A stretch of 32,366 nt of DNA from the NCBI GenBank assembly GCA_016926395.1, contig JAFGOT010000004.1:1-32366 (forward strand), written 5' to 3'. The notes beneath the pieces were generated by a model. The model searched no databases and was not told the DNA's origin. It saw only the letters and a program-made list of their open reading frames with translations. Source of the stretch: Candidatus Woesearchaeota archaeon (GTDB taxonomy: Archaea; Nanobdellota; Nanobdellia; Woesearchaeales; SKGA01). The stretch's first letter is position 1. Each line of letters opens with the position of its first letter. The position numbers and the translations under genes are program-made. This document shows positions 12,085-25,109 of this stretch, piece by piece.

Positions 12085-12201
12085 GCCTCCGTGGCTTAGT
12101 GGCTATAGCGCCTGACTTGTATACAAAACGAATGTTTTGAACCTTTCAAACTTCGTTATCAAGGAATCAGGAGGTCGCGAGTTCAACTCTCGCCGGGGGC
12201 T
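12085..12201 (+). tRNA. tRNA-Thr(TGT) with 44-nt canonical 37/38 intron (12122-12165)
   Basis: Acceptor GCCTCCG/CGGGGGC, ASL CCTGA-CTTGTA|A-TCAGG, T-arm GCGAG-TTCAACT-CTCGC, discriminator T. BHB: CTTG/CAAG central helix with bulges TAT and GAA; expected cuts TA|T and GA|A give exon 1 ending 12121 and exon 2 starting 12166. Confidence 0.9.
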
Positions 12202-23305: not shown

Positions 23306-23378
23306 GCCTCCTTGGCTTAGTGGCTATAGCACGGCATTGGTAATGCCGAGATCCCGGGTTCAACTCCCGGAGGAGGCT
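23306..23378 (+). tRNA. tRNA-Thr(GGT)
   Basis: Acceptor GCCTCCT/AGGAGGC, ASL CGGCA-TTGGTAA-TGCCG, T-arm CCGGG-TTCAACT-CCCGG, discriminator T. Confidence 0.95.
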
Positions 23379-23456: not shown

Positions 23457-23529
23457 GCCTCCGTGGCTTAGTGGCTATAGCGGCTGCCTAGTAAGCAGCA
23501 GGTCCCGAGTTCAAATCTCGGCGGAGGCT
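23457..23529 (+). tRNA. tRNA-Thr(AGT), A34 anticodon
   Basis: Acceptor GCCTCCG/CGGAGGC, ASL GCTGC-CTAGTAA-GCAGC (anticodon 23490-23492), T-arm CCGAG-TTCAAAT-CTCGG, discriminator T. Confidence 0.93.
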
Positions 23530-23539
23530 TATTTCTTAT
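23516..23539 (+). repeat. att-like direct repeat, copy 1 (3' end of tRNA-Thr(AGT) plus flank)
   Basis: Shares an exact 18-nt core CGGAGGCTTATTTCTTAT with 25092-25109. Confidence 0.8.
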
Positions 23540-23571
23540 TTATATAAAGCTCTCAATCTAAAAAATTAGAA

Positions 23572-23985
23572 TTACTTTGAAGGTCTTAATTTTATAAATA
23601 ACCAATTTAATGGAAAATATACTATTAGAACAACTACCAAAGACAATGGCCAGAAAATAATTTTTGAAAGAAGTGAATTATATATGATCATAAATGTTGA
23701 TAACACTACAACAACCAAACTAATAAAAAAATTATCATAAAAATTTTGTTTGTCTTTTAAGTCATCCGAAAAGGAAACATAGATATTATATGATACAAAT
23801 AGTAGAAAAATTAACGTAAAAGTTAAAACTAAAATTCCTTGCGAATTGGTGTCCGTGAAAAGTTCAGTAGAACCATAGACCATTGAAATAAATTTTCCAA
23901 AAAAGAAAGAAACTAGCAAAGAAGCTATCAATGCCGAATTAAAATTTTTAGATTTTCTCCAATGTTTTGTTATTACTTTAAACAT
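23572..23985 (-). CDS. Small four-TM membrane protein
   Basis: Four hydrophobic segments (ALIASLLVSFFFGKFI, ILVLTFTLIFLLFVSYNIY, FFISLVVVVLSTFMIIYN, IIFWPLSLVVVLIVYFPLNWLFI); ATG 1 nt after the upstream stop (TAAAATG). Confidence 0.75.
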   Translation of the reverse strand: MFKVITKHWRKSKNFNSALIASLLVSFFFGKFISMVYGSTELFTDTNSQGILVLTFTLIFLLFVSYNIYVSFSDDLKDKQNFYDNFFISLVVVVLSTFMIIYNSLLSKIIFWPLSLVVVLIVYFPLNWLFIKLRPSK

Positions 23986-23986
23986 T

Positions 23987-24724
23987 TTATTTTATTGCTT
24001 GTTTTGCTTCTTTGACTTCATCTTCAAAAGTTTTAATTGTATTATCCATTTCATCCATTCGATAATACAGTGTATGTATATTGACTTTCATTTTTTCTTT
24101 TTCACTAGACAATCTGTAAGCTACACTTTTCAAATATCTCATTTTGCCCAACTTTTCTGTAGCTTCTTTTAGTTGACTTTTGAATCGTTTTACTAAATCC
24201 TTTGCTTCTAGAAGATTTCTTGGCCAGTAGGATAACTCTCTCTTAACTTCTGACTCTGCTTTGTTATATTTCTTTTTTGTTTCTTTGATTCCACTTTCTA
24301 TTTCAGTTATTTTGTCTAGAATTTTTTTGAAACTAGATTTTGATGTATATTCAGGATATTTATCTAGATATTCTTGCATTGCATTTATTCTAAAATCATC
24401 AACCTCAGAATCTTTTATTTTTGGTTTTATTGTAACATTTGTATTCTTCTTTCCCTTCTGAGATGTTTTTAGCATTTCTTTTTCGAAATTAGTTTCTTTA
24501 ACTAGTAAATTATTCAGACTCACATATAATTCTGATTTCTCTTCTTCATCAGCCTTTAAATCATTTTTATATTTATGAATCAAAGCCATATTATCCTTAA
24601 GTTTGTGATTCATACCATAAAGCCACTTAACTTTTGACTTAACTTCCTCATGAGTACGATTTAAAGCTTGTTGATACTCTTCTTTGATTGCAATTGCGTC
24701 CTTTTTTCCTGTTATGTCTACCAT
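23987..24724 (-). CDS. LemA-like coiled-coil protein (soluble, no N-terminal TM)
   Basis: INAMQEYLDKYPEYTSKSSFKKILDKITEIESGIKETKKKYNKAESEVKRELSYWPRNLLEA matches the LemA order YPxL..F..L..ElxxtExxIxxxRxxYNxxVxxYNxxxxxfPxxl. Start set to MVDITG. Confidence 0.6.
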   Translation of the reverse strand: MVDITGKKDAIAIKEEYQQALNRTHEEVKSKVKWLYGMNHKLKDNMALIHKYKNDLKADEEEKSELYVSLNNLLVKETNFEKEMLKTSQKGKKNTNVTIKPKIKDSEVDDFRINAMQEYLDKYPEYTSKSSFKKILDKITEIESGIKETKKKYNKAESEVKRELSYWPRNLLEAKDLVKRFKSQLKEATEKLGKMRYLKSVAYRLSSEKEKMKVNIHTLYYRMDEMDNTIKTFEDEVKEAKQAIK

Positions 24725-24725
24725 T

Positions 24726-24893
24726 TTATTTGAAATACTCCTCCTTCTTGAGATTTTTTGGTTTAACTTCAACTTCGAAATGTTTGATTATTTTTTTAAT
24801 TGCTTCTTGTTTTGTTTTTAGCCCATTCACTAATTTGTATATCTCTACTGCTTTGTCTTCCTCAGGGCTTAAGTCTAATTGTATTTTTACCAT
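24726..24893 (-). CDS. 55-aa ribbon-helix-helix / DUF2683-like protein (absent from the supplied ORF track)
   Basis: MVKIQLDLSPEEDKAVEIYKLVNGLKTKQEAIKKIIKHFEVEVKPKNLKKEEYFK; stop 1 nt before the LemA-like ATG; TATA-like catttatatatttc on the minus strand upstream. Confidence 0.7.
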   Translation of the reverse strand: MVKIQLDLSPEEDKAVEIYKLVNGLKTKQEAIKKIIKHFEVEVKPKNLKKEEYFK

Positions 24894-25085
24894 TTGTATC
24901 TTCTTGATATACGAGAATATACTGAAATATATAAATGTTTCTATGATTTTAGCTCTTTTCAGCTATTAAATTTAAGAACTCAAACGCCTTTTATTCTCTT
25001 AGGGAACTCGTTAGAATTAGCGTTTTACACTGGGGGCTTTATACTTCCTGAGAGCTTCAAGAGAAGGGAAACGGAGAGTCTTTAT

Positions 25086-25109
25086 TTTCGCCGGAGGCTT
25101 ATTTCTTAT
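25086..25109 (+). repeat. att-like direct repeat, copy 2 (tRNA 3'-end remnant)
   Basis: TTTCGCCGGAGGCTTATTTCTTAT; no intact tRNA precedes it. Confidence 0.75.

Follow-up and report, generated by a model that had tools for sequence, protein, structure and literature searches.

In archaea, the limits of integrated elements are routinely set with the help of repeats of tRNA 3' ends. Archaeal elements that have integrated into tRNA genes leave one complete and one partial copy of the tRNA, PYG1 of Pyrococcus yayanosii being an example (PMC9897764), and integrated elements of 9 to 23 kb or CRISPR spacers account for the partial tRNA copies published for archaea (PMC9897764). The locus described here, on a 32,366-nt stretch of contig JAFGOT010000004.1 (the window, whose numbering is used for all its features), resembles the PYG1-type elements in that apparently foreign genes are bracketed by a complete tRNA and a copy of that tRNA's 3' end, but its insert is about 1.5 kb long instead of approximately 9 to 23 kb, has no integrase, and is bounded by a repeat core of 18 nt. 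We compared the genome that carries it (G000) with two genus-mates (G001 and G002) and a family relative (G003).

The window contains a tandem pair of plus-strand tRNA-Thr genes, tRNA-Thr(GGT) at 23306-23378 and tRNA-Thr(AGT) at 23457-23529, both detected by ARAGORN and Rfam (RF00005), and it is the 3' end of the second that is repeated. The preliminary description of this DNA had reported the repeat as a 24-mer, and its figures were reproduced: positions 23516-23539 and 25086-25109 are identical at 22 of 24 positions, lie 1,570 bp apart, and share an exact 18-nt core, CGGAGGCTTATTTCTTAT, found on the plus strand at 23522-23539 and again at 25092-25109, 6 bp from the 3' end of an FtsX/MacB-like permease gene. 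The core comprises the 3' strand of the acceptor stem, the discriminator base, and 10 nt of trailer. In 60 Markov-simulated windows, the top match for the 24-mer was 17/24. Nor is the repeat a tRNA trailer that recurs genome-wide, the objection that had been foreseen, since the only two exact occurrences of the 17-mer GGAGGCTTATTTCTTAT in the draft genome of 1.02 Mb (40 contigs) are those at the tRNA-Thr locus. The extent of the repeat has to be narrowed, though. T-stem position 65 is G in tRNA-Thr(AGT) and C in the distal copy, and since the C49-G65 pair of the window gene is also present in tRNA-Thr(AGT) of G003, the distal copy does not extend intact into the T-stem and has not simply duplicated the entire 3' end. 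The secure repeat is thus the 18-nt core and not the full 24 nt.

The identity of position 65 also bears on a different origin of the distal copy, namely, as what is left of a third tRNA-Thr gene in the tandem array, of which all but the 3' end was lost through decay or when the genes now lying between the repeats were inserted, with no duplication involved. C65 is found in tRNA-Thr(TGT) of G000 and in the tRNA-Thr genes of G001 and G002, tRNA-Thr genes do stand in tandem at the locus, and their T-rich trailers are alike. No tRNA remnant is detectable before 25086, however, and the 10-nt trailer of the distal copy is identical to that of tRNA-Thr(AGT), which makes a relic gene improbable in our judgement.

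The window tRNA-Thr(AGT) has A at anticodon position 34, which is unusual in archaea; G003 also has such a gene, and no tRNA-Thr(GGT) was found in that genome. At 12085-12201 the window has a tRNA-Thr(TGT) whose anticodon loop is interrupted by an intron; Rfam found this gene, and ARAGORN in its default mode missed it. Elsewhere, a tRNA gene of G003 has an apparent intron within the T-loop (L120, G003:C77:16671-16825), and in G001 an ORF judged by eye to be LAGLIDADG homing endonuclease-like lies directly upstream of an intron-containing tRNA-Thr (L040:2275-2910, G001:C28).

Between the repeats lie three minus-strand ORFs of 55, 245, and 137 aa with 1 nt between successive genes, just as previously described, and none of them encodes an integrase. 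All three genes, which specify a putative regulator, a LemA-like protein, and a four-transmembrane-segment (4-TM) protein, are absent from G001, G002, and G003. Because they are missing from two genus-mates and a family relative, the operon was probably gained horizontally; the opposite pattern, in which relatives devoid of the repeat would have inherited the same genes vertically, was not found in these three genomes. They did not offer a clean empty site either, the locus being rearranged there. In G003, tRNA-Thr(AGT) follows the same DHH gene as in the window and is in turn followed by SRP54-, GyrB-, and HIT-type genes (identified by eye) and then by the FtsX gene, and in G001 the gene order around the locus is different again.

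Two other tRNA genes of G000 are flanked by inserts. The element at tRNA-Arg(TCG) (L074, G000:C17:21985-22059) extends 7.36 kb downstream, has a 17-nt repeat, and encodes an archaeal-type integrase (PF16795, E = 4.8e-40). The insert downstream of tRNA-Gln(TTG) (L063, G000:C36:13812-13884) is 1.14 kb long, lacks an integrase, and has a Fic gene (PF02661, E = 6e-20) as its sole gene; its near-perfect repeat of 81 bp begins 12 nt inside the tRNA and recurs about 1.2 kb downstream. Among the four genomes, only G000 carries a PF16795 integrase, encoded once and away from the tRNA-Thr locus; other tyrosine recombinases are present in all four. No end sequences shared by the three inserts (Thr, Gln, and Arg) were seen by eye. 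The integrase-bearing tRNA-Arg element and the integrase-less Fic insert support tRNA-targeted insertion in trans, and we lean towards direct integration at the 3' end of tRNA-Thr(AGT) as the route by which the operon entered. On this view, an integrase encoded elsewhere in the genome most likely acted in trans and recombined the horizontally gained operon site-specifically into the 3' end of the tRNA, which would have stayed intact while its end was duplicated beyond the operon. Mobilisation in trans, which had been offered as one way around the missing integrase, is thereby made more plausible by the PF16795 integrase and the Fic insert of the same genome, while the recombination in trans itself is presumed.

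We then surveyed the stretches around 100 tRNA genes of G000-G003 for copies of each gene's own 3' end, taking as a copy any ungapped score of at least 12 within 300 bp. Copies were found downstream of 34 of the 100 genes and upstream of 2, compared with 5.8 for mispaired regions; 32 cases were kept after a real neighbouring tRNA had been dropped and position limits applied. In these, the insert between the tRNA and the copy is 42 to 144 bp long and contains no gene. The copy starts in the T-loop (-18 to -16) in 18 cases and in the 3' strand of the T-stem (-15 to -12) in 9, it ends at the discriminator or a few bases beyond, and two or three tandem copies are present at several loci (examples of copies are L066, G000:C16:1019-1090; L088, G001:C12:29164; L112, G002:C46; and L041:2463-2680 in G003). 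Hairpin sequences such as CAATAATCTTTGATTATTG and AAAAATCAAAGATTTTT recur among inserts that belong to different tRNAs and species, and the inserts often carry a short segment complementary to the 3' part of their own tRNA (mean longest Watson-Crick run of 7.2, versus 5.8 for other tRNAs; permutation p = 0.0005), an excess that is small once G-U pairs are allowed (p = 0.02). Since the affected tRNAs differ among the species of G000-G003, turnover of the short copies seems fast. At loci from five genomes of other families, 3 of 49 tRNA genes had a downstream copy and 1 an upstream one, so the pattern is concentrated in this archaeal family.

The short inserts are like miniature elements with target-site duplication in that they share hairpins, are flanked by direct repeats, and occur at many tRNA genes; they differ in that what is duplicated is the 3' end of the tRNA concerned, from the T-loop or T-stem onwards, and in that no mobilising enzyme is known for them. 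Two other identities were considered for them and rejected. The hairpins are not general dispersed repeats, as 24 non-self matches fall just downstream of tRNAs and, of 8 matches listed elsewhere, 4 follow a tRNA-Met gene missed by the first scan and the rest are hairpin-only. Integron attC sites were dismissed by eye, there being no GTTRRRY cores and the repeats being tRNA-specific. No description of the 3'-end copy pattern was found in the open-licence literature, and this habit of the family is apparently undescribed.

As about a third of the family's tRNA genes have a gene-free 3'-end copy, the repeat at tRNA-Thr(AGT) may precede the operon, and the mere presence of a tRNA 3'-end copy is no proof of integration of the operon through it. 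The corresponding loci in the relatives have short copies too: in G003, a copy of the 3' end lies 126 bp after tRNA-Thr(AGT), and in G001, a degenerate one, matching the distal copy of the window at 19 of 27 positions, lies about 100 bp after tRNA-Thr with no operon present, so the distal copy of the window may have been in place before the operon. These duplications, along with the 32 found among 100 tRNA genes, favour arrival in two steps, with a short 3'-end duplication coming first and the LemA operon entering the interval later by an unrelated route, in which case the repeat would say nothing on how the operon arrived. The right end typical of the short inserts (an inverted T-arm segment, a hairpin, and a copy starting from the T-loop) is nevertheless not evident before 25086, and we consider such a history rather unlikely. 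Direct integration at tRNA-Thr(AGT) is still the reading that we prefer; the preliminary description had likewise proposed an integrated cassette, and the unique 18-nt repeat, the integrase-free insert, the absence of the genes from G001-G003, and the two other tRNA-flanked inserts are on its side, even if the repeat is not proof. More tentatively, short and long inserts could be products of one undescribed tRNA-targeting insertion process, which would copy the tRNA's own 3' end, beginning in the T-loop or T-stem and stopping shortly after the discriminator, and set it 40 to 150 bp or, with cargo, 1 to 7 kb downstream, behind a hairpin with a foot complementary to the same tRNA. Its cargo-bearing examples would then be the LemA operon and the Fic gene.

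LemA proteins are membrane-anchored helical proteins that form a widespread family, and to our knowledge they have no settled function. The middle gene of the operon (23987-24724, minus strand) starts at a conserved ATG at 24724, as does its ortholog, the TTG start listed at 24772 being an over-extension. The PF04011 score of its 245-aa product is 25.4 bits, just below the gathering cut-off of 26.2, and those of two orthologs are above it (26.3 bits in L157, a locus of a Nanoarchaeota MAG whose protein is the closest, with 62 to 63% identity, and 38.6 bits in L218). At other loci the partner of the regulator is an unmistakable LemA (PF04011 E = 2.8e-45 in L217 and 7.8e-32 in L213), and L218 has an intermediate form (E = 1.2e-9). 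In hhalign, the anchor-less group matched true LemA at 94.8% (E = 5e-8, 130 columns). The N-terminus is hydrophilic in the window, L157, and L218 proteins, and a membrane anchor is present in the true LemA partners. The AlphaFold model of the 245-aa protein is all helix; a structural search with it gave no match at E < 0.001, and LemA (2ETD) ranked only 16th. Pfam on the orthologs and the hhalign comparison thus uphold the earlier reading of the protein as LemA-like and identify it, at the level of sequence, as a derived LemA that has lost the N-terminal membrane helix and gained a C-terminal coiled coil. With the LemA family (PF04011; 2ETD) it shares the helical core, by profile, and the operon position of true LemA genes in relatives; it differs from it in the missing anchor, the extra coiled coil, and the slightly sub-cutoff Pfam score. 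No plasmid match was found for this protein.

Of 292 genomes examined from the order, 15 (G000 included), scattered over 15 genera, encode homologs of the 55-aa protein specified by the first gene (24726-24893, minus strand); the two genus-mates and the family relative do not. A LemA or LemA-derived gene directly follows the regulator at 10 of the 12 loci examined besides the window; the exceptions are L215, where it precedes a vWA/BatA-like membrane gene (by eye), and L209, which is near a contig end. Regulator and LemA together are a recurrent travelling unit of this archaeal order with a patchy distribution. No tRNA was found within the fetched stretches at these 12 loci, so the gene order, for which a search at other tRNA genes had been suggested, recurs as a regulator-LemA pair but away from tRNAs. 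None of the other regulator-LemA loci examined has a counterpart of the 4-TM gene, and the notion of a three-gene cassette is not supported. Nor could the assignment of the 55-aa protein to the ribbon-helix-helix (RHH) family be substantiated: no significant match came from Pfam searches with 13 regulator members, from a PDB profile search, or from hhalign against CopG, and an AlphaFold monomer from a two-sequence input (pLDDT 70), which is a poor model with one long helix after residue 9, had no convincing RHH fold. No phage match was found for it.

The promoter (24894-24941, minus strand) consists of a GAAACATTTATATA box and an operator-like block that reaches up to the ATG. Comparison of 13 promoters (the window and the regulator loci L157 and L209-L219) showed that the TATA-like promoter noted earlier is real and conserved, with a (G)AAANN-TTTATATA-like box 24 to 42 bp upstream of the start codon in 13/13. 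The block between box and ATG, 34 bp long in the window and about one repeat shorter in L214 than in the others, has a 10-bp periodicity (mean lag-10 identity of 0.537, versus 0.289 in shuffles), for which the z of 10.8 overstates the significance because the 13 sequences are related, while the period itself is internal to each; the next-highest lags among 6 to 15 have z of 2.8 and 2.5. The TATA box and phased block in all 13 promoters make autoregulation of the operon by the 55-aa protein likely, in keeping with the suggestion that the module is self-regulated. Repeats located just 3' of an archaeal TATA box fit repression by dimers that bind next to one another, and such dimers would most obviously be encoded by the first gene. 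RHH autorepressor operons are similar to that of the window in their small first gene and in repeats, here 10-bp phased, between the TATA box and the start codon; the 55-aa protein differs in having no profile or structural match to those repressors. The operon would thus express, from its TATA promoter, a DNA-binding-type regulator translationally linked to the LemA-family coiled-coil protein, and the regulator would probably bind the phased repeats and limit its own operon.

The third gene (23572-23985, minus strand) encodes a 137-aa protein with four membrane segments predicted by eye, weak sub-cutoff Pfam matches only, and no relatives in G001-G003. The gene in this position differs among loci, being a phosphoesterase gene in L157 and L211 and, by eye, a gene for other small membrane proteins in L212 and L216 and a NUDIX-like gene in L210. 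A stand-alone defence or toxin-antitoxin cassette on a mobile element, as had been considered, would agree with the small regulator placed first, the membrane protein placed last, and the patchy distribution. We regard it as very improbable, given that no toxin family was recognised, NCBIfam and PADLOC gave no meaningful match (that of PADLOC being a single negligible coiled-coil one), and the LemA partners are regular members of their family, encoded at unremarkable places in the chromosome. We would guess that the operon is autoregulated and acts as a membrane scaffold; its LemA protein, having lost its anchor, may be supplied with one by the newly gained 4-TM protein, the replacement of the anchor being wholly conjectural.

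The family-wide 3'-end copies generalise the repeat found at tRNA-Thr(AGT) and, at the same time, weaken the earlier inference of integration from it. If about a third of the tRNA genes of this lineage carry copies free of any element, the rule that such repeats delimit integrated elements has to be qualified for it, and a mobile process for which no enzyme is known is suggested by the short hairpin inserts. The conserved regulator-LemA operon, with its phased operator-like block, provides a testable handle on the function of LemA.
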